Shown piece after piece: positions 1 through 14,119 of a stretch of DNA of 22,189 nt. Position 1 is the stretch's first letter. The number at the start of each line of letters is the position of its first letter. The stretch comes from a virus: IMG/VR virus record IMGVR_UViG_3300007344_000287, positions 1 through 22,189 of that record, one strand, 5' to 3'. The position numbers and the translations under genes were made by a program. The notes under the pieces were generated by a model. It did no database searches. It had not been told where the DNA came from and saw only the letters and a list, made by a program, of their open reading frames with translations.

Positions 1-55
1 CTATCAACGCGGCAATGCGCTCCTGCTCTTCTTTTAGTCTCATTAGTGTGTTCAT
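1..55 (-). CDS. Start of an unknown early gene, cut by the window edge
   Basis: Only the first 18 codons are visible. They read MNTLMRLKEEQERIAALI and run off the left edge. The start codon overlaps the stop of the upstream nuclease gene in an ATGA arrangement (ATG at 55-53, TGA at 54-52), which is the typical junction in this operon and supports the start. The visible part is charged and helical, compatible with a coiled coil. No function can be assigned. Confidence 0.55.
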   Translation of the reverse strand, partial: MNTLMRLKEEQERIAALI

Positions 56-369
56 AGTGCTTCTCGAATTAACTCAATCCAATCGCTTGCCCTCATCGTC
101 ACAAGCCATTCACAATTGTTTCTGCGGTGCGCAACGTAAGGCACCTTTTCTTCTGCGTCTTTGATTGCCTGCCGCATTGCTGTCTCGATGTTAAGCCTCT
201 CCACCCGCTTTACTTCAGGGTGAAGCTTGGACCCCATCTCCTCGCAGATCACGTCAGGGCTATCAGGGCCGCCAGCAAATTGCTGGCCGCGCTTTGCGTT
301 AAATCCGTGTTCGCGGAGAAAGTCTCTCCATTGTCGCTCCCCTCTTGCCCCTTTTGATCTGCTATTCAT
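52..369 (-). CDS. Hjc/PDDEXK-like endonuclease (possible Holliday-junction resolvase)
   Basis: A 105-residue basic protein. It begins with SRSKGARGERQW, where Glu11 sits in the position of the first catalytic acid of Hjc-type and related PDDEXK nucleases. It continues with a PDV segment (Asp39) and then EVKRVE (Glu52, Lys54), giving the order E...D...ExK expected of the fold. The length is close to that of small phage and archaeal resolvases. Such enzymes cut branched DNA during phage recombination or before packaging; that role is inferred from the motif, not shown. The gene lies in the minus-strand early operon and overlaps its upstream neighbour by an ATGA junction at 369-366. A generic VRR-type or restriction-like nuclease is the main alternative. 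Confidence 0.7.
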   Translation of the reverse strand: MNSRSKGARGERQWRDFLREHGFNAKRGQQFAGGPDSPDVICEEMGSKLHPEVKRVERLNIETAMRQAIKDAEEKVPYVAHRRNNCEWLVTMRASDWIELIREAL

Positions 370-602
370 TGTGCTTTCAGGATCAATCTTGCCGCTGCAA
401 TCAGCTTAATGTCATCCTCTGTTTTATCCTCATAGTCCCCTCCCTCTAGCCAGAGAATGCGGTCGCGGATCACTTCGCGCATGGGGCAGTCTTTCAATTG
501 CTGCCAATGCTTTAGCACCTCTTCCCGTGGCGCCTCATCAATGACAAGGCGCAGTTTCTCCCGTGCTTCGATGTAGGCACGGCAACGCTCAGTGAAAGTC
601 AT
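366..602 (-). CDS. Hypothetical early protein, 78 aa
   Basis: I do not recognise the family. The 78-residue product is highly charged and predicted helical, with a Trp/Leu-rich centre and an acidic stretch (GGDYEDKTEDD) before a helical C-terminus. It is coupled to the downstream nuclease by an ATGA overlap. A 12-bp perfect palindrome, GAGGGGCCCCTC, lies 5-16 bases upstream of its ATG, so initiation could be affected by a local hairpin or a bound protein. No Shine-Dalgarno sequence other than the GAGGGG half of that palindrome is seen. Confidence 0.6.
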   Translation of the reverse strand: MTFTERCRAYIEAREKLRLVIDEAPREEVLKHWQQLKDCPMREVIRDRILWLEGGDYEDKTEDDIKLIAAARLILKAQ

Positions 603-687
603 GAAAGAGGGGCCCCTCGCCCGAATCGGTCGGGCTGTGATGTTGTACGGTCACAGTAGGCGCTGTGTGTTTGTTTGTTAAATGCAT
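589..687 (-). CDS. Possible 32-aa small early protein
   Basis: An ATG ORF fills the gap between the mom-like gene and the 78-aa gene, and its end overlaps the start of the latter by 14 bases. The product begins MHLTNKHTAPTV and is rich in His, Thr and Pro. In its favour, the operon otherwise has almost no non-coding DNA. Against it, the region holds GC palindromes and inverted repeats that could instead be regulatory, and no family is recognised. Confidence 0.28.
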   Translation of the reverse strand: MHLTNKHTAPTVTVQHHSPTDSGEGPLFHDFH

Positions 688-700
688 CACGCGGGGCCCC
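607..700. repeat. GC palindromes in a leader region
   Basis: GAGGGGCCCCTC at 607-618 is a perfect 12-bp palindrome, and its core GGGGCCCC recurs at 693-700. Between them lie an inverted repeat GCCCGA/TCGGGC (about 619-635) and a looser TGTGA/TCACA pair. All of this sits in the only larger gap of the left half of the operon, upstream of the 78-aa gene. It could be an RNA hairpin controlling that gene, an RNA-processing site, or a protein-binding site. There is no T-tract, so it does not look like an intrinsic terminator. Confidence 0.45.
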
Positions 701-743
701 AAAATTGATGTGTGTCTATCCCGATTAAAACACATAGATGTGT

Positions 744-1427
744 CTATACCTTGTTCTGCCTAAAATCCTTGATGAAAAGCCACTTCCGAGAACGGTCGCG
801 CCATTCCCCATCTACCCCCTTTGTCTTGCCCCGTTGCTGCACCTTCCCATCTACCCAGAAGTCCTTTTTGGGAGCGGTCATCCCCAGCGCGGTGAATCCG
901 CTTGCTTTGTAGATCGTCCCTTGATGCCCCTGCCCATCGTCAGCATAGGTCACAATTCCCTTCACGGTCGCCAATTTGCGGAGCAGTTTTGTCGTGATGG
1001 CGATGAATCTGCTTTCCGAGTTTTTCGGGCAAAGCGGCGACATCACCAGTCGCTTGATTTCCCACCAATCTCCTTGGGCGTGCCTGTCCCAATATCCTGC
1101 GAGATCGGTCGCGTTTGGTGGGCCGTATGTGATCGCGCCTTCTAGCTTGCCCTCCCAATATGCCCCGAAGTTGATCTGGGACACGAACCCTTGATCTCCC
1201 AAGTAGTGCCATGCGCGATACGCTTTTGCGGCTGTTGGTGCGCCGATTTCTCGGAAGTAGAGTTGGAGCGCGGAGGTCGGACTTGAACCGCCATCTTCCT
1301 CTTGGAATAGAGGTAGCTCTACCGTTGAGCTATCCACGCATAAAGCAGAACAAGTAGTCGCAGACGAACCCGCCTTAGCTTCGGGTCGTTCGGGCGTCTC
1401 TTGATCTGACAGGGTTAAATCTTTCAT
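744..1427 (-). CDS. Mom-like DNA modification protein (GNAT-type acyltransferase) with an unusual N-terminus
   Basis: From about residue 54 the 227-residue product matches the pattern of phage Mu Mom-like proteins: an AWHYLG motif (72-77), GAITYGPP (98-104), WWEIKRLVMSP (121-131), a conserved NSESRFI segment (136-142), then TYADDGQGHQGTIYKASGF (160-178). Mom proteins adopt a GNAT fold and in Mu modify adenines, shielding phage DNA from restriction. The assignment is by pattern recall. Residues about 30-55 are encoded by the tRNA-Gly-like sequence at 1264-1339, and no ATG, GTG or TTG lies between the tRNA end and the conserved AWHYLG motif. Translation must therefore start at ATG 1427 (chosen; 9 nt after the preceding ORF) or at GTG 1337 inside the tRNA. 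Confidence 0.7.
   Translation of the reverse strand: MKDLTLSDQETPERPEAKAGSSATTCSALCVDSSTVELPLFQEEDGGSSPTSALQLYFREIGAPTAAKAYRAWHYLGDQGFVSQINFGAYWEGKLEGAITYGPPNATDLAGYWDRHAQGDWWEIKRLVMSPLCPKNSESRFIAITTKLLRKLATVKGIVTYADDGQGHQGTIYKASGFTALGMTAPKKDFWVDGKVQQRGKTKGVDGEWRDRSRKWLFIKDFRQNKV
1264..1339 (-). tRNA. tRNA-Gly(TCC)-like gene with an expanded anticodon loop, embedded in the mom-like ORF
   Basis: Read on the minus strand, the 76-nt element has an acceptor stem GCGTGGA pairing fully (one G-U) with TCCGCGC, a discriminator T and an encoded CCA. It has a perfect D stem GCTC/GAGC with a GG-containing loop, and a T arm GGCGG-TTCAAGT-CCGACC with a canonical loop and one bulged A. The anticodon arm is odd: CCTC/GAGG closes an eight-base loop TATTCCAA instead of a seven-base loop. 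It contains the TTCCAA expected of Gly-TCC. Either this is a functional variant tRNA, possibly frameshift-suppressor-like, or a decaying one. It is co-directional with, and wholly inside, the mom-like reading frame. Confidence 0.65.
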
Positions 1428-1436
1428 AGAACAGGG

Positions 1437-1814
1437 TTAGGTGTTGTCGTCAGCGGGTCGCTGGACATTGACGTTAGACACACACCCCAGTCTCTCAGCC
1501 TCAGCCAGAAACGCTTCTGCCACCTGCTCTCCATGGCCCTCATTAATTGCTGTAGTGTATTCAAACCCTTTCACCTCGAAATGATCACAACAGATCTGCT
1601 CCAACTGCTCCAAGCATCCATATTCCTCATTAGTCTCATCAAATGCCCTTTCTTTCCCTACAGGATAGCCGCCAACACGGGCAGCCGCTCTAGCTGGTCA
1701 GTCATGCCCAGCAAATTGCCAACTTGATTCACAACAAGCTTCCTTCGCTTCCCGGGGCCATTCTGTGGCAGCCTTGGCAGCCGCTCTTAGCATTGGTTCT
1801 GTTAATTTAATCAT
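1437..1814 (-). pseudogene. 125-codon early ORF interrupted by a single in-frame TGA
   Basis: The ATG at 1814 overlaps the stop of the upstream 70-aa gene (ATGA). The frame encodes 38 residues (MIKLTEPMLRAAAKAATEWP...) up to a TGA at 1698-1700. It then continues open for 86 more codons, with protein-like composition (RAFDETNEEYGCLEQLEQIC, then VAEAFLAEAERLG), to a TAA at 1437-1439, 9 nt before the mom-like start. The downstream part has no ATG and only TTG candidates in frame, so it is unlikely to be an independent gene. A nonsense mutation, a sequencing error, or TGA readthrough (the context is TGAC) would each explain it. No family is recognised. Confidence 0.6.
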
Positions 1815-2023
1815 TGTTTCAGCCGATACATCACGCGGTTCAACTTGAGAACATGCTCAAGCATTTCTTTGCTGCCGTAGAACTCAATCAGCTCTTCCTC
1901 CATATGCCCAAGCAACGTCTTCACCCTGGTCAAAATCTCGCTGCCACGATCCAACCTCTCTGCCATCTGCTGAATGCGGCCCAGGCCAATCAATAATCCC
2001 ATCACATGGTCATCAGTGCTCAT
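1811..2023 (-). CDS. Hypothetical helical early protein, 70 aa
   Basis: A 70-residue product, almost entirely helical, with heptad-like leucines (LLIGLGRIQQMAERL, then LLGHMEEELIEFY), so it probably forms a coiled coil or oligomer. It overlaps both neighbours by four-base ATGA junctions (2020-2023 upstream, 1811-1814 downstream), indicating translational coupling. The family is not recognised. By position, between a ssDNA-binding-like region and the mom-like gene, it is an early accessory protein. Confidence 0.65.
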   Translation of the reverse strand: MSTDDHVMGLLIGLGRIQQMAERLDRGSEILTRVKTLLGHMEEELIEFYGSKEMLEHVLKLNRVMYRLKQ

Positions 2024-2376
2024 AATGCTTCATTCACTTGGCGAATTAGCTCGCTCATGTAGTCGCGATAATAGTCTTCCCATTCTTGCGCCTGGGCCAA
2101 GTGCGGGCGCTTCTTCCATTGTCTCCAGATTGCTTCGCGCATCTCTTGGCTTGGCGTTTTCTGCCCCTTCTCTTTCTTGGGCGCTGCGGGCGGTTGCTCT
2201 GGCTCTTCTGTTGCGCCTTGTCTCACAAACAAGAGCCAGAGCAGTTCCCTCCGTAAAGATAACAACGCTGCATCTGTTTCACTGTCTGCTTCCTGGCAGT
2301 CCACGATCAATCGCAGAGTGCCGTCAGCCATCGTTTGCAAACGGCTTATGCTGGCGCTGACTTTGAGATAGGCCAT
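2020..2376 (-). CDS. Hypothetical early phage protein, 118 aa
   Basis: The N-terminal 45 residues look like a compact beta-rich domain (KVSASISRLQTMADGTLRL, then IVDCQE). This resembles small phage proteins that report on replication or recombination substrates, but I cannot name the family. A Pro/Lys-rich linker (about residues 60-77) leads to a Trp-rich helical tail (EAIWRQWKKRP, EWEDYYRDYM). The start codon shares its A with the stop of the upstream gene (TAATG at 2376), and the end is coupled to the 70-aa gene by ATGA. Function unknown. Confidence 0.65.
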   Translation of the reverse strand: MAYLKVSASISRLQTMADGTLRLIVDCQEADSETDAALLSLRRELLWLLFVRQGATEEPEQPPAAPKKEKGQKTPSQEMREAIWRQWKKRPHLAQAQEWEDYYRDYMSELIRQVNEAL

Positions 2377-2672
2377 TAGCGAATGCGATAGATAGGCGTC
2401 ATGCGGGCATGGCTGCTGCGCGTTTTCATCTGCCCCATTTTTCCGGTTTTCTCAATGAGCCGCAATTTCAGCGCCCGCAGGATCAATGCGCCCGCCGCAT
2501 TGTGATGGTGAGGGGCGCCCACCCGGGAGCAAACCCAAATACGGATTTGCTCCCCGGTGGCTTCTTTTGATGGGTAATTGGGCAACTCATCCAGTGCAAG
2601 TTGGAGCCAAGTCTTAGCTTTCTCCTCTACACGCTCGAGCGCTTCATCTCTCAGGGTTTTGGCCGCTTTCAT
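2376..2672 (-). CDS. Winged-helix-like phage DNA-binding protein, 98 aa
   Basis: This 98-residue product has an N-terminal amphipathic helix, then a segment ATGEQIRIWVCSRVGAP, then HHHNAAGALILRALKLRL, and a basic end rich in Arg, Ser and His (KTRSSHARMTPIYRIR). The pattern resembles small phage proteins with a winged-helix or HTH-like core in which a conserved His/Asn-Ala-x-Gly motif precedes a recognition helix. The resemblance is from memory and imprecise. The gene is joined to both neighbours by TAATG junctions (2672 and 2376), so all three are co-translated. A role in early DNA metabolism or regulation is inferred from position. Confidence 0.6.
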   Translation of the reverse strand: MKAAKTLRDEALERVEEKAKTWLQLALDELPNYPSKEATGEQIRIWVCSRVGAPHHHNAAGALILRALKLRLIEKTGKMGQMKTRSSHARMTPIYRIR

Positions 2673-3304
2673 TAAAAAGGAATATCATCAGTTTCAACTG
2701 TATCATTGGGCGGGCCATCCCCTGTCTCAGCCGGTTGCATATCAACCACCTCGATGCCCGCTTTCTTGAACTCAGCAGAGTTGCCAAGCGCTTTTTTGAT
2801 CCACTGGGGCAGCTTTTCGTAATCACCCCCGGTCAACTCTTCAATCTGATAGTAAAAGCTCTCCAGGCTTGCTGCCGGCACCTGAGTGCCTTGAGGCAAA
2901 GCCATCACACTGGAGATCCTGGGGCGTGGGTCGCCTTTCTGGTTCGCCTTGTGAGTAATTGCAAGCATGCACCCTGCGCCAAGGACGCGTTTCATTTCAA
3001 AGCCTTGCAGCTCTTTCTCGGTAAAGCCCTTCCCGCGCCATGCCTCAAGGGCCGCCCGTAGATTGCTCTTCTCATTGAGACTCGCCGTGAACCATTTGCT
3101 GATCACAGCCGGCTCTTCTCCTCGCTCCTCCTTGAACACATGCCGCACCTGGGGGAGTTCCCAGAGAACCAGCATTTGCTGCTTGTCACCGTAGGCAGTC
3201 TCTTGCGTGCCCACGTCAACTATGCCGTAACACGTTGCTAAATGTGTTCCTTCAGGGATAAGAAAAAACTCCCCGCCGCCATGATCGCTTACTGTTAATG
3301 CCAT
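2672..3304 (-). CDS. Phage ssDNA-binding-like protein with SSB-type C-terminal tip
   Basis: The 210-residue product has a beta-rich N-terminal part (FFLIPEGTHLATCYGIVDVG, then QQMLVLWELP) and a helical middle (SNLRAALEAWRGKGFTE). It ends in an acidic tail closing with DDIPF. That ending is the classic tip with which bacterial SSB proteins recruit replication and repair partners. Proteins of this architecture are common in phage replication modules. The likely role is coating ssDNA during replication or recombination; this is inference from the tail and context. The start at 3304 lies after an A-rich leader (GAAAAACAATAAA) and overlaps the upstream Zn-knuckle gene by 10 nt. Confidence 0.65.
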   Translation of the reverse strand: MALTVSDHGGGEFFLIPEGTHLATCYGIVDVGTQETAYGDKQQMLVLWELPQVRHVFKEERGEEPAVISKWFTASLNEKSNLRAALEAWRGKGFTEKELQGFEMKRVLGAGCMLAITHKANQKGDPRPRISSVMALPQGTQVPAASLESFYYQIEELTGGDYEKLPQWIKKALGNSAEFKKAGIEVVDMQPAETGDGPPNDTVETDDIPF

Positions 3305-3570
3305 TTTATTGTTTTTCTGTTTTCTGTTTGTTTGCTTCTCCCGTCAGGAGAGAAAATGCTGTTGCCGCCACTGCCGCCCCTTTTTGCGGTGTTCCTGCCA
3401 CTCCAATGCTTGCACTCATAGCTGCCCACCGTGTTCCAACACACTCGACAGCGCTGTCCCGGCTTCCGTTTTGGTAGCAACAACTTCAGTTCACCACTCT
3501 TTGTCCTTTGTTGCCGGCGCCGCACAATGGCGCGAAAGTTTGCAGCCTTTGCTTCCCATTCTTTACTCAT
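3295..3570 (-). CDS. Small basic protein with a Cys/His knuckle, 91 aa
   Basis: The ATG at 3570 is preferred over one four codons upstream because it makes an ATGA overlap with the previous stop (3569-3567). The product begins with a helical basic segment (AANFRAIVRRRQQRTKSG). It then has CRVCWNTVGSYECKHW, a C-x2-C...C-x-H arrangement that may bind one zinc. The C-terminus is a disordered Gly/Ser/Lys-rich tail. It lies immediately upstream of, and overlaps, the ssDNA-binding-like gene. It may bind nucleic acid; no family name is claimed. Confidence 0.6.
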   Translation of the reverse strand: MSKEWEAKAANFRAIVRRRQQRTKSGELKLLLPKRKPGQRCRVCWNTVGSYECKHWSGRNTAKRGGSGGNSIFSPDGRSKQTENRKTIKWH

Positions 3571-3830
3571 GCTTCTCTCCAAATGACCCAGAAAATAGAC
3601 AGAGCCGTTTCAGTGGTTTTATGCTCCAAATTGCTCCTGTCCGTGGTCCACAATGAATGGCACTCAGCAGAGCGCTTGGTTTTGGACATCGCAACCATAT
3701 GGTTATCGAGTCCCTCGACTCGATGTGTTGCGGGTCCGTCATACCCCACAGGAACAATCAATTGCCCCACTCGCGGCGGCTCAACCGGGGGCGCCACAAA
3801 TTGGCGGATCCACCAGGGATAAATTGTCAT
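3567..3830 (-). CDS. Hypothetical early protein, about 87 aa
   Basis: The frame is supported at its 3' end by an ATGA junction with the next gene. The product contains PWWIRQFVAPPVEPPRVG, then LIVPVGYDGPATHRVEGL, and an aromatic end (SIFWVIWREA). The start is uncertain: ATG 3830 is listed, ATG 3857 gives nine more residues, and GTG 3797 would reduce the overlap with the upstream gene from 50 to 17 nt. No family recognised. Confidence 0.5.
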   Translation of the reverse strand: MTIYPWWIRQFVAPPVEPPRVGQLIVPVGYDGPATHRVEGLDNHMVAMSKTKRSAECHSLWTTDRSNLEHKTTETALSIFWVIWREA

Positions 3831-4113
3831 CCCATTTGAGCCGCTTGGCGCATCCATAATCCTCCAGAATATTATTGTAACGAATTACGGTTGAATCATG
3901 CTGCGGACCTGTCCAACTCTTGTAGCCTGGGCTTGTTGATTGGCGATCCGCCAATCGTTCCAGCAACAGCTTAAGTTTCCACATCCCCGGGCGCTGCATG
4001 ATCAACACCCAGCCGCCCAACACCTCTACGCGCAGCACTGGTTGCCATACGCGTTGCGAACTGCGGCCCTCTTGATTGCAGATCACCTCTGGCTCTAGTG
4101 GTGGCGCAATCAT
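3781..4113 (-). CDS. Hypothetical early protein, 110 aa
   Basis: The start shares a base with the stop of the small membrane-protein gene (TGATG at 4115-4111), good evidence for translation. The product has a beta-strand-rich middle (VWQPVLRVEVLGGWVLIMQR) followed by a basic Trp-Lys segment (GMWKLKLLLERL). The second half, around HDSTVIRYNNILEDYG, is mixed. I do not recognise it. Its end overlaps the following gene in another frame by 50-77 nt, depending on that gene's start, which is unusually long for this operon. Confidence 0.55.
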   Translation of the reverse strand: MIAPPLEPEVICNQEGRSSQRVWQPVLRVEVLGGWVLIMQRPGMWKLKLLLERLADRQSTSPGYKSWTGPQHDSTVIRYNNILEDYGCAKRLKWDDNLSLVDPPICGAPG

Positions 4114-4274
4114 CAGAGGTTTCGATAACGCAACGCCTCCAAGATTTTGCCATCACGCCGCGCTCTGCGGCGTTGCGCAGAAAACACGGTTTTAGCCAGC
4201 AGAAGATAGCAGCCTGCTGAAATTAGCGCCACGCTGGTCACGGCGCCCAATATTGTGAAGAATTGGTGTAACAT
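4113..4274 (-). CDS. Small single-pass membrane protein, 53 aa
   Basis: From ATG 4274 the product is MLHQFFTILGAVTSVALISA followed by GCYLLLAKT. This is one hydrophobic helix of about 22-25 residues, then a strongly basic tail (FSAQRRRARRDGK), predicting insertion with the basic tail in the cytoplasm. An upstream ATG at 4319 would add 15 polar residues ahead of the helix and is less likely. The leader (CACACAAAAACC) has no Shine-Dalgarno sequence. As the first gene of the early operon after the RHH repressor it could act in superinfection exclusion or membrane anchoring; a holin is possible but unsupported. Confidence 0.5.
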   Translation of the reverse strand: MLHQFFTILGAVTSVALISAGCYLLLAKTVFSAQRRRARRDGKILEALRYRNL

Positions 4275-4420
4275 GGTTTTTGTGTGAGTGATGCAGCGGC
4301 GCCTAGAATGTGTGGGCAAGACTAGGCCTGAATATGAATTAACGACGACGTGTCCCCGTGCCCGTTCCGTCCCCCTGTTGCCAAGGGGAGCCGCTGCAAA
4401 TTATGGGTGTGCTCGTATGT

Positions 4421-4457
4421 GGCACATGCAAACCAGTAAAAGGGCAATGCATGTGCC
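4421..4457. repeat. 10-bp inverted repeat GGCACATGCA / TGCATGTGCC
   Basis: A perfect inverted repeat (4421-4430 and 4448-4457) with a 17-bp spacer lies just beyond the stop of the minus-strand RHH gene. The half-site GCACATGCA also occurs at 4632-4640 upstream of that gene, so this is more likely a second operator than a terminator: there is no T-tract after it on either strand. Protein bridging between the two sets of sites, about 200 bp apart, is possible. Confidence 0.5.
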
Positions 4458-4466
4458 GTGGTTGGT

Positions 4467-4616
4467 TTAGCCTTGGCGCTCCAAGTATTGCTCAATTGCC
4501 TCGCGCAGAATCACCGAGATTTTCACTCGGCGCTTTTTGGCGATTCGCGCAACCTTGCGCTGATCCGTCTGAGGAACTCTCGCCCTAAGTGTTTTTGAGT
4601 AAAGCGTGTCCGGCAT
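4467..4616 (-). CDS. Ribbon-helix-helix (CopG/Arc-type) repressor, 49 aa
   Basis: This short ORF starts with ATG 4616. The product has a strand region LRARVPQ (residues 10-16), the first helix (DQRKVARIAKKRR), then KISVILREAIEQYLER (32-47), which fits the RHH second helix. Such proteins dimerise and bind operators through the paired beta-strand. It resembles the divergently transcribed RHH protein at 4779-4952 (shared RARV and ILR-AI--YLER), suggesting a duplicated pair. GCACATGC-type half-sites occur at its start codon and just upstream, which suggests autoregulation. It is the first gene of the minus-strand early operon. No Shine-Dalgarno sequence is present; translation might be leaderless. 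Confidence 0.75.
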   Translation of the reverse strand: MPDTLYSKTLRARVPQTDQRKVARIAKKRRVKISVILREAIEQYLERQG

Positions 4617-4640
4617 GTGGGCTACATTGGAGCACATGCA
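4612..4640. promoter_or_regulatory. Probable operator of the minus-strand RHH gene
   Basis: GGCATGTGG (4612-4620) and GCACATGCA (4632-4640) form an imperfect inverted repeat that includes the RHH start codon. The same half-site makes the perfect inverted repeat at 4421-4457. A TTGACT (minus strand, about 4647-4652) lies 17 nt upstream of AATGTA, and the half-site at 4632-4640 falls inside that spacer, the expected place for a repressor site. The -10 match is weak. Confidence 0.45.
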
Positions 4641-4778
4641 GGCCCAGTCAAAAAGAAACTTTCCTTTTTTTTGGGGCTGAGGAACTGCGTATAAGTTGTT
4701 CTGTTTTTAAAAAAAACTTGGTTGTGCCTAGATGTGGCCTAGCGGATCTTCTCGCCCAATTTAAACTTACGCCACACC
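4617..4778. promoter_or_regulatory. Divergent control region between two RHH genes
   Basis: This 162-bp gap separates the divergent RHH starts. It contains homopolymer tracts (T8 near 4665-4672 and A8 near 4710), a plus-strand TATAAG at 4690-4695 that could be a -10 for the rightward gene, and a repeated GTG-CCTAG / GTGGCCTAG pair around 4724-4742. The layout matches phage immunity regions such as lambda cI/cro or P22 arc/mnt. Which promoter is active under which condition cannot be read from sequence alone. Confidence 0.4.
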
Positions 4779-4952
4779 ATGAATGCAGAATCTGCCCTCC
4801 CGGATAAACAGAAAACCGCAGTGATCAGAGCTAGAGTAACGGACCAGATTAAAAGGCAGGTGGACGCACTCGCAGAGGCGTCAGGGGAATCTGAGGCGTA
4901 CATTTTGCGCCAGGCGATCCGTGAGTACTTGGAGCGCCACAGCAAAAAATGA
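4779..4952 (+). CDS. Ribbon-helix-helix (CopG/Arc-type) DNA-binding protein, 57 aa
   Basis: This short plus-strand ORF encodes a 57-residue protein. It has strand AVIRARV (14-20), helix 1 DQIKRQVDALAEASG (22-36), and helix 2 EAYILRQAIREYLERH (39-54), a textbook RHH domain. It is a paralogue of the minus-strand RHH protein but has its own spacing and a longer N-terminus. It points toward a 29-bp tandem repeat array that begins 59 bp after its stop, so the array is a natural candidate target. It may be the lysogeny repressor, an anti-repressor-like Arc counterpart, or a partition-type centromere-binding protein; position does not decide. Confidence 0.75.
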   Translation: MNAESALPDKQKTAVIRARVTDQIKRQVDALAEASGESEAYILRQAIREYLERHSKK

Positions 4953-5011: not shown

Positions 5012-5272
5012 AATCCAGGGAAACCTCGCGGCTGAACGGCAATCCAGGGAAACCTCGCGGCTGAACGGCAATCCAGTGACGCCTCGCGGCTGAACGGTAA
5101 TCCAGTGACGCCTCGCGGCTGAACGGCAATCCAGGGAAACCTCGCGGCTGAACGGCAATCCAGGGAAACCTCGCGGCTGAACGGCAATCCAGTGACGCCT
5201 CGCGGCTGAACGGCAATCCAGGGAAACCTCGCGGCTGAACGGTAATCCAGTGACGCCTCGCGGCTGAACGGG
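5012..5272. repeat. Nine tandem 29-bp repeats (iteron-like array)
   Basis: Nine head-to-tail units of exactly 29 bp start at 5012, 5041, 5070, 5099, 5128, 5157, 5186, 5215 and 5244. Each begins AATCCAG and ends CCTCGCGGCTGAACGG plus one base. Two subtypes differ in the middle: type A has GGAAACC and type B has TGACGCC, in the order A A B B A A B A B. Units are otherwise almost invariant and there are no spacers. The unit is not a multiple of three, so the long frames through it are artefacts. Possible roles are replication iterons, a partition site, or an operator array for the adjacent RHH protein. Confidence 0.9.
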
Positions 5273-5586
5273 AATGCTCCTGCTTTTGATCTGGAGCAGA
5301 GACGGATCTGCACACCCCGCCCATTGCGCTGGACGGAGCATGCATGCTTCTGCTTTCGAGAGCCATCGCTGTCAAATGGAGAGCTGCAACGGATGAAATG
5401 CCACTGGCCCCACGAGGCGCCACCTCATGCCAGTCTAGGCAAATCATCACCCGGGAGCTTCAAGCGCTCCCTTTTGCCCGCGTGATGCGGGGCCATGCTG
5501 GGCCGAGTGTGTTTCGCAGCATGGCTGTGGGGTTGATTAACGCCCTACGCTGTCCGTGTTTCAGGTTTCAGGATCGGGAGCCCCAG

Positions 5587-5620
5587 GCAAAAAGAAAGCC
5601 CGGAAATGCAGTTCCGGGCT
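5587..5620 (-). terminator. Rho-independent terminator, minus strand
   Basis: A perfect 9-bp stem AGCCCGGAA/TTCCGGGCT (5597-5605 and 5612-5620) with a six-base loop is followed on the minus strand by TTTCTTTTTGC. It would stop leftward transcription coming from the attP/integrase side, insulating the repeat array and RHH switch. If the prophage forms, it could also stop read-through from the disrupted tRNA side. Confidence 0.75.
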
Positions 5621-5868: not shown

Positions 5869-5910
5869 CGGTTTTGGAGACCGATGCTCTACCAATTGAG
5901 CTACTGACCT
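5869..5910 (-). other. attP core: 5' half of tRNA-Trp(CCA)
   Basis: Minus-strand bases 5910-5869 read as a tRNA 5' half: acceptor strand AGGTCAG, TA, D arm GCTC-AATTGGTA-GAGC, and an anticodon arm CGGT-CTCCAAA-ACCG whose loop gives anticodon CCA. After the anticodon stem the sequence stops resembling a tRNA: there is no T arm and no CTGACCT acceptor partner. Phage genes lie on both sides, and the integrase starts 110 bp away. It therefore fits an attP core, with crossover in the anticodon region, better than a host tRNA. Integration would join this half to the host 3' half and rebuild the tRNA. Confidence 0.75.
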
Positions 5911-6019: not shown

Positions 6020-7108
6020 ATGCCGCCCAAGATCAAGCCTAATCCATCCGGGAAATACCCTTGGCTAGTGGAATGGCGGGAAGGAGTGACCAAAACAGGA
6101 GCACCCAAGCGCTGCCGTAAATACTTTGTAAATGCAGCCCAGGCCAAAACCTTCGCACGAGAGAAACGGACGGAACTGGCGACACTTGGCGCCAAGGCAA
6201 CTCCCTGGTCAGCACTGGAAAGAGCGGCCATCGAGGAAGCAAGAGCGGCCCGCATTGATCCGCTTGAGGCTGTGCGGCACTTTGCTCATCTCAAAGCAGA
6301 GCAGGCAAAGAGCGTGCCTGTGGGGGAGGCTGTGGAAGAGCGCCTGAGAGACGCTGAGAGACGTTTTAAGCCTTCCACGGTGACCGACACTAGATACAGG
6401 CTAAACGCTCTCAGAAAGACTTACAGTGAACAGAACGTGAGGGGCATTTCTCGCGATAACCTGGAGAAATGGATTACAGAGCGAGGGAGCACCCAGAACC
6501 AACGGAATTTCTGGATTGTGCTGCACTCGTTCTGGGAATTCTGCATCAGCAGAGGTTGGGCGGGGGAGAATCTATTGGATCGCATCCCCAAACCAGGAAA
6601 ATCTAAAAGCAGCATTCAGATATTCGCGGTGGAACAGCTCCGCACCTTGCTCCACGGGGCAGAGCCTGAAATCCTGCCGGCCCTGGCAATCATGGCATTT
6701 GCAGGGCTGAGGCGATCCGAAGTGATGGCGCTGCAATGGGAGCACGTCAGAGGGGGCCACATCGAAGTCACCGCAGACAACGCAAAGAGCGCTCGGCGCC
6801 GATTGGTGACGATTTGCCCCGCGCTGAGAGAGTGGCTTTTGTGGGAAAAACTGGGTAATATTTCCCACAAATCTGGGGCATTATGGCCGGGCCGCTCCAA
6901 TGCCTACCGCAGAGCTAGGAAACTGGTCACCCCTTGGCCACACAATGCGCTGCGGCATTCGTTCGCCTCCTATCACCTCGCACTGAACAGAGATGCTGCA
7001 AGCACGGCCCTGGAACTAGGGCACAGCTCCACGGCAATGCTGTGGGAGCATTACCGCGAGCTAGTGACCCAGAAAGAGGCTGAAGCGTGGTTCTCGCTTA
7101 CTCCTTGA
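6020..7108 (+). CDS. int: Tyrosine recombinase / phage integrase
   Basis: A 362-residue tyrosine integrase. An N-terminal arm-binding-type domain (about 1-60) is followed by a SAM-like core-binding domain (about 95-185) and the catalytic domain (about 200-355). Catalytic positions are Arg231 in AGLRRSEV, Lys256 in NAKSARRR, Arg312 in NALRHSF, His335 in LGHSS and nucleophile Tyr345 in WEHYREL. The usual first His of the HxxR motif is Asn309, although His308 is adjacent. The NALRHSFASYHLA style is one I associate with Verrucomicrobiota elements. The gene sits beside the attP core, so it most likely integrates the phage at tRNA-Trp. Its 3' end overlaps the convergent sigma-like gene by 58 bp. 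Confidence 0.93.
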   Translation: MPPKIKPNPSGKYPWLVEWREGVTKTGAPKRCRKYFVNAAQAKTFAREKRTELATLGAKATPWSALERAAIEEARAARIDPLEAVRHFAHLKAEQAKSVPVGEAVEERLRDAERRFKPSTVTDTRYRLNALRKTYSEQNVRGISRDNLEKWITERGSTQNQRNFWIVLHSFWEFCISRGWAGENLLDRIPKPGKSKSSIQIFAVEQLRTLLHGAEPEILPALAIMAFAGLRRSEVMALQWEHVRGGHIEVTADNAKSARRRLVTICPALREWLLWEKLGNISHKSGALWPGRSNAYRRARKLVTPWPHNALRHSFASYHLALNRDAASTALELGHSSTAMLWEHYRELVTQKEAEAWFSLTP

Positions 7109-7554
7109 GCCTGCAACCGCTCCAAACTCAGCGCCAGAATCTCCCGCGCTTCCTGCGGCTCCATCCCCAGCCGTGCCGCTGCATCCTCGATTTTCTCACG
7201 GGGCCGCTCAAGCAAAGTAGAGTAAACCAAATCTGCTGCCAACGGGTCAAGCGCACTCAACCAATCCCACTGCTCTTCATCCTCGGCGCTCTCTGGCAAA
7301 TCTTCGCCAAGCAGCGGCTCTTTGAGCAGATCACGCATGGCTCTGCGGATTTTGGGGCGAGCATAGGCAGCAAAGGGGCGCCCCCTAAACCGCCATTTAT
7401 TGGCTGCCTGCGTCAATGCGTAGGCGCCGGCGGAAAAGAAGTCATCAAAGGTCAGTCCCTGTGCCCTACGGCTGGCTGCCTGCAACACCACTAACCACAA
7501 GTGCCCCTCAACCAATTCTTCTGCACTGGCTCTGCTTTGTTCCTCTAGGCTCAT
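7051..7554 (-). CDS. Sigma-70-like transcription factor, 167 aa
   Basis: The start at 7554 is chosen because the sigma-like homology begins there and the methyltransferase gene ends only 22 nt upstream; a longer frame to 7737 would overlap that gene heavily. Residues 12-78 resemble sigma region 2: EELVEGHLWLVVLQAASRR, then LTFDDFFSAGAYAL, and a FRGRPFAAYARPKIRRAMRD segment matching the core-binding and -10-recognition helix. Residues about 103-150 (IEDAAARLGMEPQEAREILA) resemble the region-4 HTH. It is the last gene of the late operon. It may redirect host RNA polymerase to phage promoters; a diverged helical regulator is the alternative. Confidence 0.65.
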   Translation of the reverse strand: MSLEEQSRASAEELVEGHLWLVVLQAASRRAQGLTFDDFFSAGAYALTQAANKWRFRGRPFAAYARPKIRRAMRDLLKEPLLGEDLPESAEDEEQWDWLSALDPLAADLVYSTLLERPREKIEDAAARLGMEPQEAREILALSLERLQAQGVSENHASASFWVTSSR

Positions 7555-7576
7555 TCGGGGAGCTGCGAGGCAGGCT

Positions 7577-8119
7577 TTAACACATTTTAACACGGGCAAG
7601 CTGCGCGGGATACTCTCCAGGGTCTGGCTCAATACGCTCCACAGATCCCGCCATAGCCAGGGCCCAATCATACCAGGGCCGCGAAGAGTCATGAATGAAG
7701 ATGGCGGGGCAGAGCGGCCAACCCACCTTCTCTCCATAATTCAGCAACCTTGCCAAGCATGCGCCACGCGCAATGCCATCAATCAGGATCACATCAAAAT
7801 CTGCGAGGTCCGCAGGCGTTCCAATGTATTCAGCGGCGCCGGCTGGGCACTCCTCCCATGGTGTTGCGTTTTTGCCCTCGTGACTCACGGGACGATAAAG
7901 TAGCTCCCACTTGTGCGCCAGATCACGCTTGAGCACTTGCCGCCGCAATTCATGTGACCATTGCAACGAATGCTCCACACTGGTCAAACTTTGATCATCT
8001 CGCATGTTTTCGAGCAACCATAGAGATGTGCCGCCGCTGCCCCACTCAAGAATGGCGCTATGATCCGGCAATGCCTCTAGCAATGCCTGCCGCTGATTGA
8101 GCGCCATCAATGCCTTCAT
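7577..8119 (-). CDS. Class I SAM-dependent methyltransferase, 180 aa
   Basis: The 180-residue protein has motif I as EWGSGGTSLWL (25-35), an acidic motif II in SVEHS (47-51), and DVILIDG (109-115) as the motif IV-type strand. It ends with a C-terminal aromatic/His segment IFIHDSSRPWYDWAL. This is the pattern of small class I methyltransferases found in glycan and secondary-metabolite clusters. The substrate is unknown. The gene overlaps the upstream DUF115-like gene by ATGA (8116-8119) and follows a glycosyltransferase, so methylation of a sugar on the virion or host surface is a reasonable inference. Confidence 0.75.
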   Translation of the reverse strand: MKALMALNQRQALLEALPDHSAILEWGSGGTSLWLLENMRDDQSLTSVEHSLQWSHELRRQVLKRDLAHKWELLYRPVSHEGKNATPWEECPAGAAEYIGTPADLADFDVILIDGIARGACLARLLNYGEKVGWPLCPAIFIHDSSRPWYDWALAMAGSVERIEPDPGEYPAQLARVKMC

Positions 8120-8853
8120 GGTTTCTTTGCTTCTACGTAGCTCACTGATGTTTCCTTGGGCACTTCCAATCCTCGCTCAAAGTCATCAAATTCAACAAAC
8201 TCCATGAATGCGTTGATTGGGCTATCAGGAGTCAATGAGTAGCACTCAATTCCAAGCTCTGCCCCGCGCCGCGCAAATTGCCTCAGCCATGCCAATCCGC
8301 CATCATAGCTGATGCGGTTGCGTTTGTTTTGCCACTCCTCCAACTCCAAATCCTCATGGCAATAACCAGAGCTGAAGTCACAGCCAGCGAAATAGAGTTG
8401 GCGATGTCCGCGCTTCAGTAAAAGATGCACTCCAACTTGAAACGTCAGCCTGTACCATACGCAGGGCGTTTTGTTGTCCCTCCATTGAAAAATGGCGTCA
8501 GGGTAGGGCGCCTCTGCCAGATCCACAAAATAGCTGTTTGGAGTGGCGAACAGGGGCGCCCCGCTACGATCCAGCAATTTATGGTGATTCGCCCGCCAGT
8601 ACTTGGGAAACTGCTCACGGGTCAGCGATGGGCGAAACTGCTCAGGCTTATCCATCCCCACCCATGCATCAGGGCGGGGGACTGTGGGATATGCGGTATT
8701 GACTGCTAAAACGAATCGCCCCGGGCCGCTCAGCTTGTCGCCTAGCGCACGGAGAGAAGGACCAGGGCAAGCGAGAATGCCCGGGACGAAATTGGGGGCG
8801 TGTTGGAAAGGCACCCTATCCCATTGCGATCCGTTATGACTCCAAATGCTCAT
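8116..8853 (-). CDS. DUF115/sialyltransferase-like (GT-A-like or GT42-like) glycan enzyme
   Basis: A 245-residue protein beginning with a short beta segment and then ILACPGPSLRAL (26-37). This PGPSL nucleotide-sugar loop is typical of DUF115 (Maf flagellin glycosyltransferases, MptE-like) and of CST-type sialyltransferases. It is followed by FVLAVNTAYP and DAWVGMD. The C-terminal part has AGCDFSSGYCHED and a helix leading to IECYSLTPDSPI, like the NLSP ending of those families. The exact enzymatic class cannot be fixed from sequence alone. It is sandwiched between a glycosyltransferase and a methyltransferase with overlapping ends, consistent with one glycan-modifying cassette. Confidence 0.6.
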   Translation of the reverse strand: MSIWSHNGSQWDRVPFQHAPNFVPGILACPGPSLRALGDKLSGPGRFVLAVNTAYPTVPRPDAWVGMDKPEQFRPSLTREQFPKYWRANHHKLLDRSGAPLFATPNSYFVDLAEAPYPDAIFQWRDNKTPCVWYRLTFQVGVHLLLKRGHRQLYFAGCDFSSGYCHEDLELEEWQNKRNRISYDGGLAWLRQFARRGAELGIECYSLTPDSPINAFMEFVEFDDFERGLEVPKETSVSYVEAKKP

Positions 8854-9001
8854 TGCTCTGCTTATGTCTCGCCATGTCTTTTCTGAGCGCCACTTGTGCT
8901 TCTGCTTTGCATGCTGCGCACCCTGTATCCTGGCAGATTTTGCAATCCCATTGACACGAGCACGGCGTTACTTCTCTGGGGTTATCGCATTCAACACACA
9001 T
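8834..9001 (-). CDS. Cys-rich zinc-binding mini-protein, 55 aa
   Basis: The start at 9001 shares a base with the stop of the glycosyltransferase (TGATG at 9003-8999); a start five codons upstream at 9016 is possible. The product has eight Cys in the pattern C-x2-C, C-x-C, C-x2-C, C-x2-C (MCVECD, CSCQWDC, KICQDTG, CAAC) within 33 residues. This suggests two zinc sites. A helical charged tail follows. The family is not known to me. Its position inside the glycan cassette makes a partner or regulator role plausible. Confidence 0.6.
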   Translation of the reverse strand: MCVECDNPREVTPCSCQWDCKICQDTGCAACKAEAQVALRKDMARHKQSNEHLES

Positions 9002-9627
9002 CACCACTGCATCCATTCATGCTGCACCGCGTTGGGGCGCGGTTGCCCGTGAAACATTACCACGCTTGCTCCCTGCGGCCCTCGCTCTGCGCAATTATCC
9101 CCCTTATAACTCTTCACCAACCCGGGCGCCTTATCCTGCCACATACCAACTGCATTGGGCAGCAAATCCGCGATCACTTCCTGATCACCATGATTCTCTT
9201 TCATGTGATGCTCTTTCCGCGCTAAAAACCCGGGCCATACTTCGCGCTTGATTGCGTCTGGAATAAACATCATGCCGCTTGCCAATTCTTGATGACGGTA
9301 AAAATCCCGCAGCATGATTGCATTGAGAGAATCGCGGCAGATCCTTTCAATAGGGCGCAGATCACCCGTAACCACCATATCTAGATCAAAGTAAAGCCAA
9401 TCATAATAGGTGTTGAGGCGAAACAGCTCTAGCTTGCTCCACCATCCCGGCAGCCCTACCTCAAGCAGAACGGTGTTGCAGTTTAAGTCGTCTCTATCTG
9501 AAAAGCAGAAAAAGGGCAAATGCCCCAAGCCTCCACGCTCTAGCCCTGCGCGTAGTTTATAAACCCAGTCCGGGGAGTAATCCCCGCCGCTCTTCATTAC
9601 GCATGCAATCGCTAAATCCATGTCCAC
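9001..9627 (-). CDS. Glycosyltransferase, GT8-like (DxD motif)
   Basis: The 208-residue protein contains [10 protein letters not shown] (39-48), a [12 protein letters not shown] block (60-71), and [14 protein letters not shown] (77-90). In the last of these the DLD at 81-83 is the metal-binding DxD of GT-A enzymes. The FDLDMVV context and the downstream LASGMMF and HGDQEVI segments (the latter as [12 protein letters not shown]) fit GT8-like and related families that transfer a hexose from a nucleotide sugar. The start overlaps the end of the collagen-like fibre gene by 16 nt, so translation is coupled to that of the fibre. The fibre is therefore the first candidate acceptor, though a host glycan is equally possible. 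Confidence 0.75.
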
Positions 9628-12491
9628 GCGCCGCCCGTGAGCACCATAGATAAACTATCCCCATTAGAATATCCAACGGGATCTGGCAGGTCTGGAACAT
9701 TCGCGGAGTCACCTTGTGGGCCAGTGGGGCCCTGCGGACCTTGGTTGCCCTGTGGACCTTGAATACCTTGGTCACCTTGCAATCCTTGATTGCCTTGGGG
9801 CCCCGTATCACCTTGCGGCCCCTGAATACCTTGATTGCCCTGGTCGCCTTTGGCTGCCAGCAAATCCCAATAAGTCTGCCAAGACGGGCTAACTCCCGGT
9901 TCAATATTGGTGTGATTTAGAATGCACACATAAGCGCTGCCATTGTGCTCTAATGCATTTGTGACCACGTAGGCAGTGGCATTGCTCCAATCAGCGCTAA
10001 TCCAAATCAGCCCTTGATCACCCGTGTCCCCTTGAATGCCTTGTGGACCTTGCGCACCCTGGTCGCCTTGCACCCCCTGCGGCCCTTGAATGCCTTGGTC
10101 GCCTTGGATTGATGTTTGATAAGCCCAAGTGCCAGCGCTCTTCTTCCACACTTTATTGGGCGCATTCTGGTCTAAATAATAATCACCATTGTTGCCCAGG
10201 CCCGCCCCCGGATCACCATAGCCATTCAACCACTCAGGAGCAACGCCAGTGTCACCTTGAATTCCCTGTGGCCCCTGAATGCCTTGTGGCCCCTGAATAC
10301 CTTGGTCACCTTGGGCGCCTTGCAATCCTTGATCACCCTGCGGCCCCGTATCGCCCTGCGGGCCCTGAATACCTTGTGGCCCTTGAATACCTTGTGGACC
10401 CTGAATACCTTGGTCACCTTGTGGGCCAGTTTCGCCCGTGGGCCCTGGGACAGTGCTTGGATCACCCTGCGTCCCTTGATCACCTTTGGCCGCCCACAGC
10501 TCCCATGCTGACACGTTTGGAGGGGCCACATTTACACTATTAGCAATAGCCAGATAAGTGCTCCCATTATGCTCAACAACATCATCAATGTTGTATGTGG
10601 TTCCGCCAACATAGGCGCCGCGTGGCGTAAACCCTCTACCGTCAGCACCGTCATTGCCGGCGGGGCCAGTCGCGCCTTGCTGCCCTTGCTCACCCTTGGC
10701 AGCCCACTTTTCCCAGTAAGTTGCATTAGGTGGCTCGAAATTAGTGTGCCCCAAAATGCAGCGCCAAGTGGCGCCATCATTGATCACAATATCATCAATA
10801 ACATAGGCAGCGGCGTTGCTCCAAGTGCCGCGAGGCGTAAACCCTCTGCCGTCAGCACCATCAGCACCATCAGCACCATTGTTACCCTGATCACCCTGCG
10901 GGCCAGTGGGGCCAGGAACAGTGCTTGGATCGCCTTGGTCACCTTTATCGCCCTGGGCGCCCTTTTCCGCCCATAGCTCCCAGTAAGTTGCATTAGGTGG
11001 CTCTTGATTGGTGTTGGATTGCTTCGCCCGCCAAGTGCTGCCGTCATGATTTACAATGTCATCAAGATTGTAATTGGTGGCGGGGCCCCAATCACCTCGC
11101 GGCGTGAATCCTCTGCCTGCGTCACCCGTTACGCCTTGAATGCCCTGGTCACCCTGCAACCCTTGATCGCCTTGGGGACCTTGTGGGCCCACATCACCAG
11201 TCGCCCCGGGCAATCCGGTCACACCTTGATCACCCTGCAATCCTTGTGGGCCTTGGTCGCCTTGATCTCCTTTATCCCCCTTGGCGCCGGTCACCCCTTG
11301 CAACCCAGTCAATCCCTGATCGCCCTGCGGGCCAGTTATAGATTCGCCCTGCGGCCCTTGTGGCCCTGCATCACCAGTTGCCCCAGGCAATCCAGTTACT
11401 CCCTGAATGCCCTGCGGCCCTTGTGGGCCTTGCGCCCCCTGGTCACCCTGATCACCTGTAGCGCCTTGCACCCCTTGATCGCCTTGCAATCCCTGAATGC
11501 CTTGCGGCCCTGTTTCGCCTTGCAACCCTTGGGGCCCAGTCACACCCTGCTCACCTTGCAGTGATGCTCTCAGCGTCCAAACACCATTTGCCTTCTTGTA
11601 ATAGCTATTAGGGGCATTCCTGTTGATGTAAAAATCCCCATTATCACCCAGGCCAGTGGATGGAGCACCATAACCATCCAAGATCTGGCTACCCGTATCC
11701 CCTTGAATGCCTTGGGGCCCCGATGGTCCTGTGATCGTTTCGCCGGCAGCGCCAGTCAATCCGCGAATGCCTTGCTCCCCTTGATAACCTCGTGGGCCCT
11801 GGGGTCCCGGTACAAAGCCTTCGCCTTTAGCGTCACTGCCAGTTTCCCAGATCAAACACGATCCAGTTTCCAGCTCGATGCAGAAAGGCTCAGCCGTGGG
11901 CCCTGAATCGCCTGTGGGCCCCTGAATGCCCTGCGGGCCCGTAATAGATTCGCCCTGCGGGCCAGATGGTCCCTGCACTCCCTGAATGCCCTGCGGGCCC
12001 TGGTCGCCCGTAGCCCCTGCCGCGAAAATATCCCAATAGGCCTGCCACGACGCACCCACGCCTGGCTCTGTGGTTGCGTTCGTCGTGTCATGGGCAGTGA
12101 TCGCGACATAGGAAACATTGTTATGCGTCACCACATCACGCACAGAAATAGCGCCGCTAATCAGCGACCATGCGCCACGATAATTAAACCCATCACCTGT
12201 GGCCCCTGTTCCCGTGGGGCCCTGATCACCCTGCGGGCCAGTGATAGATTCACCCTGCGGACCTGATGGGCCTTGGGGCCCTGTGATCGTGCTAGTAGGG
12301 CCCGTGGGCCCTTGTGGGCCAGTGATAGATTCACCCTGCGGACCTGATGGACCTTGGGGCCCTGTAATTCCTGTGCCGCCAAGCCCGGGAATGCCCTGCG
12401 GCCCCGTGGGGCCTGTTACAGTTACCCCTGATGGGCCTGTGGGCCCCGTTGGAGACTGAAAACCAAACTCTTTTACCCAGTAACCACTCAT
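9612..12491 (-). CDS. Collagen-like tail fibre with interspersed beta modules
   Basis: From ATG 12491 (ATGA overlap with the hub gene; a start at 12512 adds seven residues) the product is about 959 residues. Long Gly-X-Y tracts, rich in GPQ, GDQ, GPT and IQG triplets, alternate with modules of about 50 residues. At least three modules begin GFTPRG and carry a Trp/Tyr pattern ending YWELWA-KG; two more divergent ones begin GFNYRG and LIWISA. They resemble small chitin/carbohydrate-binding folds. Two further modules share NAPN-YY/VW-KK. The C-terminus ([21 protein letters not shown]) is a capping region. Being next to the J-like hub, it is probably the receptor-binding side or central fibre, forming a trimeric collagen helix. 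Confidence 0.88.
12235..12365. repeat. Recent internal duplication in the fibre gene
   Basis: A block of about 50 bp beginning GGGCCAGTGATAGATTCACC at 12235 recurs 81 bp later at 12316 with very few changes. The spacing equals 27 codons, or nine Gly-X-Y triplets, so triplet register is kept. This points to recent slippage or recombination that lengthened the collagen tract. Confidence 0.7.
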
Positions 12492-14119
12492 CCGAAAGGC
12501 CCTCGCTTCCAAACATCGCCTGTGTCAATGTCCACGTATCTTTCGCCAGGATCACCTTCTCTAAACGGAGATGGTGCGCCATTGCCGCTAGTCCATTTGT
12601 CGCCCTCGCTGTCATTCACGGAGGGGCCATTGGATGTGTCAAAAGTTTGCTCTTCTGTGGAATGATCCCAATCATAAATAGAGGATGCATGCTTTCGCAG
12701 CGTCAACTTAACATGAGCAGAAGCGTTATTAGTGACAAAACTGTGCTCTATCACCTTGTAAATTCCATTAATGCCAAGCGCATCGCTGTTAAGCGTCACG
12801 GCATCCCAAGGCTTAACATCTAAGCCAACAAGCAAATTCACATCACATGTCACCTGCTCATCTAAAAGTTGCGTTTGCAGCGCAATTTTTGCCACCCGTT
12901 GCGCTTGAGTGTGAGAAGCCACAAACTCTAAATCATGCTCCATCACCACCTCTGTGCTTGGTGACCTTTCCTCAGCGAGAAACGGATTGCCGCCCTCCAG
13001 CAACACATCCACATCACTCTCAGTCTGCATTTCGTAAGTGCCTCCCGTGTTTGCGTCTCTGATAATGGGGTATTCAGTCGCGGCATCAAACGTTTCAGGA
13101 GCAACAAAAATGCCCTTGATCACTGTGGCCCTCTCCAGGCTAGTGCGGGCAGTGGTTCTGATAATGTCGCCCACAATATGATCATCTGTAATCGTCACCT
13201 CTGGCGCTGTGTAATAGCCTGAATGAACATAGTAAATCCCATCATGTTCAATCACTGCCCCCGCCATGCATTTAACTACAGGGTCAAGCCAATCTTCTGG
13301 CTCTCCCTCTAGATCAATAAATCCGCCGGCTCTGTATTTCTTCTCTGTTCCTCCCACCTTGTTGACCACAGTGTCACAATCATTCGCAGAAGCGATTAGC
13401 GTGGCACTATCAATGCGAGAGCGAGGAATGTTCACGTAATCCTCTAGAATGTTTGCAGCGATCAACGCAGGGTTGTCAGTCCACTTCAAAGTCTGATCTC
13501 GCGGATCATAGATATTATTTTTGCCCTTGATGGTGCAGGTTAAAGTGGGAATAAACGAGGGGAAACGCGCAGGCGACTCTTTTAGTTTTGCGTAAACGTA
13601 GGCTCTGCCCCTCAGCCTATGGTTCTCACCCCAAAGCGCAGGGTCTGCCGTGTCTTCAACCGCAGCAGGCAATGCCACCTGTGTATCTGTGCCGCTGACA
13701 AATTCAAAAAATGCATAATTCTCAAAGCGCCCATCTGCGCTGTTGGTCACAGGGTCAACAGTCACTAGTTCTCCGTTAATGTAAAAATCGCCAAATTCCT
13801 CCACCTCATGCGCTGCGTAAACAACAATTAAATAAAGGAATTTATTATTCCCCTGGGCGCCGCTGCCGTTGGCGTAGGCAATCAAACCGCCCTTTCTTGA
13901 TTGCCCATAGATCACCTGATGCGCCATGGAGCCTGATCGCACATTACCCGAGCGACCCGGACGGCTTTGCGCATCTGGGCGGCCCTGCAACTTCTGCCCG
14001 AGCACCTGGGCCCCAACAGCCACTGCTGCCTCAATGGCAACAGCCGCAATCGTGCCAATCACACTGGCAGCAGCTTGGGCGCCGGCAACCGCAGTAACAA
14101 TGGCCGCACCTATTCCCAC
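12488..14119 (-). CDS. Tail tip / central hub protein, J-like
   Basis: The 543-residue product starts with an Ala/Gly-rich hydrophobic segment (about 1-40) and then [37 protein letters not shown] and YINGEL. This is the N-terminal arrangement of lambda J-type and related hub proteins. Further on, [21 protein letters not shown] and a long region of beta-strands follow; the C-terminal part carries LGGN-type and DWDHSTEEQ segments. It is shorter than full J, and the receptor-binding extension is supplied by the next gene, the collagen-like fibre. It lies downstream of an NlpC/P60-like gene, the usual order for siphophage tail tips. It closes the distal end of the tail tube. Confidence 0.8.

Follow-up and report, generated by a model that had tools for sequence, protein, structure and literature searches.

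A divergent pair of short ribbon-helix-helix genes as a candidate lysis/lysogeny switch in a putative verrucomicrobial phage

The window analyzed here is the IMG/VR virus record IMGVR_UViG_3300007344_000287, a linear fragment of 22,189 bases, in which two very short, divergently transcribed genes, designated L and R, encode proteins of the ribbon-helix-helix (RHH) type. An earlier note on this DNA had proposed that this pair is a lysis/lysogeny switch built from RHH proteins. The two open reading frames (ORFs) described there were confirmed (table 1), and both products pass the curated cut-off of the Pfam family RHH_1 (20.5 bits), R clearly (E=5.4e-8, 33.0 bits) and L barely (E=3.2e-4, 21.0 bits), which assigns both to the RHH (MetJ/Arc/CopG) superfamily. 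The strings RARV and ILR-AI--YLER are present in both proteins, as the note had stated.

Table 1. Features of the 22,189-base window discussed in the text
Feature	Position	Strand	Basis or remark
L, RHH protein, 49 aa (inner ATG) or 56 aa (ATG at 4637)	4467..4616	-	RHH_1, structure model, codon usage
R, RHH protein, 57 aa	4779..4952	+	RHH_1, codon usage, chromosomal likeness
Divergent control region between the two start codons, 162 bp	4617..4778	.	
Candidate paired operator at the L start codons, GCATGTG-N13-CACATGC	4613..4639	.	
Second inverted pair, just beyond L	4421-4457	.	Candidate operator
Array of 29-bp tandem repeats (9.1 copies), between R and attP	5012..5275	.	
attP core (35 nt), from the 5' half of a tRNA-Trp(CCA) gene	5870..5904	-	Genome matches and ARAGORN
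Tyrosine integrase, verrucomicrobial family	6020..7108	+	phrog_1, E=1.6e-32
Leftward early operon	52..4319	-	Small tightly packed ORFs, L at head
RusA-like resolvase	52-369	-	Within early operon
Mom-like protein	744-1427	-	Within early operon
NGO0469-type replication protein	2672-3304	-	Within early operon
Intrinsic-terminator-like site	5597..5620	-	
Sigma-factor-like gene	7051-7737		phrog_351, E=8.6e-9
Tail fiber, 966 aa, collagen-like repeats	9612-12512		
Tail genes	Right of switch/integrase region	-	

L and R are real genes. Their codon log-odds relative to the genes of the window were 0.128 and 0.163, respectively, and none of the 72 out-of-frame ORFs of 40–75 amino acids reached either value (maximum 0.099). 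The structure model available for the window pair is that of L alone, as a monomer. This AlphaFold2 model (mean pLDDT 83.8) has an extended N-terminus followed by helices at residues 16–29 and 33–48, and its top ten matches in the Protein Data Bank (PDB) include ORF56, CopASO, CopG, PutA, and Arc, with probabilities of 0.82–1.00 and E-values of 0.06–0.3, none of which is formally significant.

L is the first gene of the leftward early operon and thus occupies a Cro-like position, while R is oriented toward attP and the integrase, as CI would be. The 35 nt of the attP core were found once each in nine of ten verrucomicrobial genomes with no more than three mismatches, and ARAGORN placed all six of the matching loci that were fetched inside tRNA-Trp(CCA) genes. 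The gene map and this attP core bear out the earlier placement of the pair between the early operon and the attP/integrase region. The integrase of the window is 26% identical to that of an Akkermansia phage across 99% of its length. Because the 80 best genomic relatives of the integrase come nearly all from Verrucomicrobiota, the host of the phage very likely belongs to this phylum.

Scans of viral contigs with single proteins gave 0, 1, and 0 relatives for the integrase, R, and L, respectively. An alignment of three integrases (that of the window and two from Akkermansia phages) was therefore used to collect 80 genomic and 80 viral loci, which carry numbers of the form L046. RHH genes in them were detected with a home-made profile that was retrained for four rounds on its own hits, and its E-values are thus not independent. 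Of the 160 loci, 20 (19/80 viral and 1/80 genomic) carry a divergent RHH pair close to the integrase, with gaps of 35–287 bp: L046, L094, L111, L118, L119, L123, L138, L139, L142, L156–L160, L163–L166, L168, and L169. These are loci and not lineages, about 15 being distinct by eye; the pairs of L158/L159/L160 and of L164/L165 agree in coordinates or in spacing, and there is a visible likeness within L118/L119 and within L166/L169. Without exception, it is the longer ORF of the 20 pairs that is directed at the integrase, and the window has the same layout, with R (57 amino acids) as the longer member and L (49 amino acids) as the shorter. The divergent pair therefore does recur beside related integrases, as the earlier proposal would predict.

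The shorter member lies upstream of early genes in L111, L119, L164, L166, L168, L156, L157, L163, L139, and L142; the early genes were named by PHROGs in L111, L139, L142, L164, and L168 and by likeness in the other mapped loci. In L168, the short RHH gene is followed by an excisionase-like gene and a gene for a Sak4-like annealing protein, and in L139 and L142 a DnaB helicase gene follows it directly. No clear early operon was seen in L158.

Additional support came from a scan of viral contigs with an alignment of the long RHH proteins, the query containing no integrase. All 28 loci retrieved have a divergent RHH partner, and a search with five integrase queries placed an integrase no more than 4 kb away in 27 of them; the contig of the 28th ends. 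This set overlaps the earlier records (for example, L179 comes from the record of L168, L188 from that of L138, L204 from that of L157, and L206 from that of L156), and several other loci look almost the same. One RHH pair stands beside an integrase 100% identical to that of L164 in L183 and L184, but in L185 the best integrase match is 32% and lies on the other strand. Since one RHH block thus adjoins different integrases, the comparison indicates that the pair and the integrase are separate modules.

With Pfam RHH_1 itself, 15 of 50 records matched, many just after the integrase; this set comprised 46 of the 80 viral integrase-locus records, three Akkermansia phages, and the window. Among individual relatives, the long protein of L046 and the plus-strand protein of L142 exceed the Pfam cut-off, and the short protein of L046, L164, and the short protein of L168 fall below it. 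When the long family was compared with an alignment of L, R, and the short RHH proteins, hhalign gave a probability of 96.6% over the strand-helix-helix region. The long RHH proteins had no match among PDB sequences, nor did that of L166 among named phages.

Other arrangements of RHH genes were also observed. Tail-to-tail RHH pairs stand right behind the integrase in L101, L103, L105, and L106, tandem RHH genes occur in L104, L121, L136, and L155, and other viral loci have a single RHH gene. L149 (8868-9405) has a mixed pair of RHH and helix-turn-helix (HTH) genes, in which the divergent partner of the RHH gene is excisionase-like (phrog_66, E=5.2e-8).

Comparison of close relatives revealed that the pair is replaced as a block. 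In L164/L166, L138/L123, L157/L156, and L111/L119, the neighborhoods are mostly 85–100% identical and the pair is ~50% identical, which is about random. L164 and L166 share 91–100% identity over most of positions 7500–11,800, with dips at ~9300–9800 and 10,300–10,500. At 30-bp resolution, the first break extends from about 9320 to 9810 and covers the intergenic DNA together with the RHH domains encoded on either side of it, one in the long and one in the short protein; both C-terminal tails are retained, and a small conserved island remains near 9571–9600. An equivalent break was found between L138 and L123 at about 6390–6880, with an island near 6611–6650. The exchanged block thus measures ~490 bp and has sharp edges in these two finely mapped pairs. 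L157 and L156 show an identity dip over the pair, and L111 and L119 show such a dip together with several other breaks.

The replacing DNA again encodes a divergent RHH pair. Its intergenic repeats also differ: AGTAGCACC or GGTAGCACC is present in L166, L156, L119, L123, and L163, and a GATATGA-like repeat in L164, L138, and L168. Among the loci with these repeats that were put to a family-wise shuffle test, the result was clear only for L164 and L168 (0 and 1 of 100 shuffles, compared with 8 for L166, 13 for L163, and 19 for L123); other relatives gave 3 (L139), 13 (L094), and 14 (L046). Judged from these alignments, the event resembles the exchange of a phage immunity cassette. In L168 (9254-9580), L164 (9167-9499), L166 (9167-9553), L138, L123, and others, the C-terminal tail of the long RHH protein is conserved even though the RHH domain has been exchanged; this tail may serve for docking or sensing.

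Records of all 80 viral integrase loci were searched for the repressor family HTH_3, and none of the 19 pair-bearing viral records had a match over the cut-off. Matches over the cut-off were found in 7 of 50 records in the first set (neither the window nor any of the five pair-bearing records was among them) and in a single one of the 34 records in the second, which does not bear the pair. HTH_19 and S24 were likewise over the cut-off in none of 29 pair-bearing records. Both Akkermansia phages used as controls pass HTH_3, one passes HTH_19, and one S24; many of the relative records are fragments. The window, which is an incomplete genome, has no match to HTH_3, HTH_19, or S24.

As to the origin of the pair, the earlier view that L and R are paralogs was not borne out. 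The two proteins are 37% identical over 49 amino acids (E about 8e-6 within the window record), and R is 53–55% identical to two RHH proteins of one verrucomicrobial chromosome, so that duplication within the phage is unsupported; a Gordonia phage RHH domain matches R about as strongly as L does (21.9 and 22.4 bits). One of the chromosomal genes (54%, L177, 8575-10267) lies ~215 bp upstream of an integrase gene on the same strand, and the other (55%) is at L176 in the same genome. Among 387 verrucomicrobial genomes, R had matches in one and L in three, and R matched one of the 49 genomes behind the integrase loci. Phage records gave three weak Gordonia records for R and no match for L. The window pair and the recurrent cassettes have a common layout, and their common descent is without support from sequence.

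We propose that the L/R pair is a phage lysis/lysogeny switch consisting of two RHH repressors, with R on the lysogeny side and L on the lytic side, a reading to which we would assign a probability of roughly 0.64. The genes, their fold family, their positions, and the recurrence and block exchange in related phages are observations; from them we infer binding, mutual repression, and the assignment of roles. R, which faces attP and the integrase, would act as a CI-like repressor, and L, which heads the early replication operon, as a Cro-like one. Each protein would form a dimer whose N-terminal strands bind short repeated operators within and beside the divergent control region, and each would shut off the promoter of the other gene and tune its own. 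The layout and the recurrence fit an immunity region, as does, most strongly, the exchange of the DNA-binding domains together with the DNA between them.

Possible operators were sought in the window. The best 9-mer, CACATGCAG, has four copies in 420 bp and was equalled by 6 of 100 shuffles, and its operator status is that of a candidate only. The motif TGTGGSSTA, with four copies against 0.43 expected, was rejected as more than a candidate, its family-wise shuffle test giving 23/100.

Several observations weigh against the switch. Neither of these motifs clearly goes beyond chance, and no match to the sigma-70 promoter consensus was found in the control region of the window. The pair of the window has no close relative, and homology of L and R to the recurrent families beyond the fold is not clear, with 11–27% identity to the short RHH proteins aligned. 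Among the ten best viral integrase matches (L090–L099), a divergent pair is present in L094 only, L097 having a single RHH gene over E 0.01, and genomic loci contribute a single pair in 80. The profile used to collect the relatives took in its own hits at each round of training, Pfam support is weak or absent for several of them (none for the long protein of L139; weak for L158 and L111), and the model of the long protein of L168 is poor (pLDDT 63.9) with no significant fold match. Sub-threshold HTH_3 matches occur in the L111 and L166 records and sub-threshold HTH_19 matches in three pair-bearing records, and a repressor could lie outside the 22-kb linear fragment. The proposal of the earlier note thus gained from the recurrence near related integrases, the block exchange, and the lack of HTH repressors over the cut-off in the pair-bearing viral records searched, and lost from the fact that the nearest integrase relatives mostly do without the pair.

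Other explanations can be considered. The pair might be a secondary, immI-like regulator, as Arc and Mnt are, that acts on an accessory function, for example an antirepressor, with lysogeny under the control of a repressor not seen here. The fragmentary state of the window favors this possibility, but no antirepressor (ant)-like gene was recognized among the window proteins searched and the HTH and S24 families stay below their cut-offs in the pair-bearing viral records, and we consider it unlikely. It is slightly less probable again, in our view, that R (or L) serves in excision or integration by bending DNA at attP, possibly at the 29-bp array. RHH genes directly after related integrases in several phages, the R-like gene upstream of a chromosomal integrase, the position of the array between R and attP, and the lack of a recognized excisionase-like gene in the window would all fit such a factor. 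However, L168 has a separate excisionase-like gene after its short RHH gene (phrog_66, E=4.3e-6), the same or a very similar sequence is found in L164, L166, L156, L119, and L123, and one RHH pair stands beside very different integrases (L183/L184 compared with L185). Moreover, no comparable array was seen near the pairs in the 108 related viral loci examined. An exact 22-nt pattern of the array had no match among viral contigs either, and the array as DNA was found in none of 288 genomes, an empty answer that carries no weight in the absence of a known positive.

L and R could also be two stray genes of antitoxin or plasmid type, with local autoregulation only. In NCBIfam, R matches best a RelB-like antitoxin (E=1.5e-7) and L the plasmid copy-control family ORF56 (E=2.3e-5), which points in this direction, although both matches are under the cut-off. 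A type II antitoxin would have a toxin gene next to it, and no toxin family was found among the neighboring proteins searched; the pairing, position, and block exchange seen in relatives would also be unexpected for stray genes. We regard this as the least probable of the explanations.

Beyond the switch region, the terminator-like site may mark the end of late leftward transcription ahead of it. The sigma-factor-like gene lies at the end of the late genes and, arranged tail to tail with the integrase gene, overlaps the 3' end of the latter. A tRNA-??? call at 1268-1340 was taken as spurious, as it falls inside the Mom-like gene.

If the switch reading is extended to relatives, there is an about even chance that a set of temperate phages of Verrucomicrobiota has a primary switch made wholly of two divergent RHH repressors. 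Immunity in such phages would be changed by swapping a block of ~490 bp that holds the two RHH domains and the operators, while the tails are kept and may carry the induction signal. The window would be a distant member of this set, and its pair the smallest among those observed. The usual way to locate immunity regions in phages is through HTH repressors. If the proposal holds for many verrucomicrobial phages, their immunity genes (mostly 50–130 amino acids, frequently with weak or no family matches) would be left unlabelled in routine annotation, and lysogeny in Verrucomicrobiota would be under-called. The natural exchanges also provide phage pairs whose differences are almost confined to the two DNA-binding domains and their sites, with which the RHH recognition code and the immunity type would be directly testable. 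Among titles in the open-access literature, subscription papers being outside the scope of the search, none was found on a primary switch of two divergent RHH genes.

Several known systems resemble the pair in part. In lambda, cI and cro are divergent small repressor genes that lie between the integrase side and the early operon, and the block is exchanged between relatives. The position of the window pair between the integrase side and the early operon matches that of cI/cro, but its proteins are of the RHH and not the HTH type. Because no S24 peptidase domain was found, RecA-driven self-cleavage is not expected for repressors of the window type.

The arc and mnt genes of phage P22 are divergent and both encode RHH proteins. 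In the immI region, Mnt represses arc and Arc represses mnt (PMC7549136, PMC11016777). Two short, neighboring, divergent RHH repressor genes are thus common to immI and the window, and Arc is among the fold matches of the L model. On the other hand, immI governs the antirepressor ant beside the main c2/cro switch, while neither ant nor a second repressor was seen in the window, whose pair lies between the integrase and the early operon. The parallel with arc/mnt drawn in the earlier note is therefore apt in kind, with the difference that arc/mnt is the secondary immunity region of P22.

RHH regulators of archaeal viruses offer further comparisons. AvtR (gp30) of the filamentous virus AFV6 represses its own gene and regulates a second predicted RHH gene, the DNA between the two promoters being protected over about 100 nt, and the accessible portion of the source describes no link of AvtR to lysis/lysogeny or to an integrase (PMC5569661). 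F55 of SSV1, a short RHH protein that maintains the lysogenic state and has been likened to lambda CI, binds tandem repeats at the early promoters and at its own promoter (PMC5569661). One such regulator is described there, in an archaeal virus, whereas the window belongs to a tailed bacterial phage and has two RHH genes in divergent orientation.
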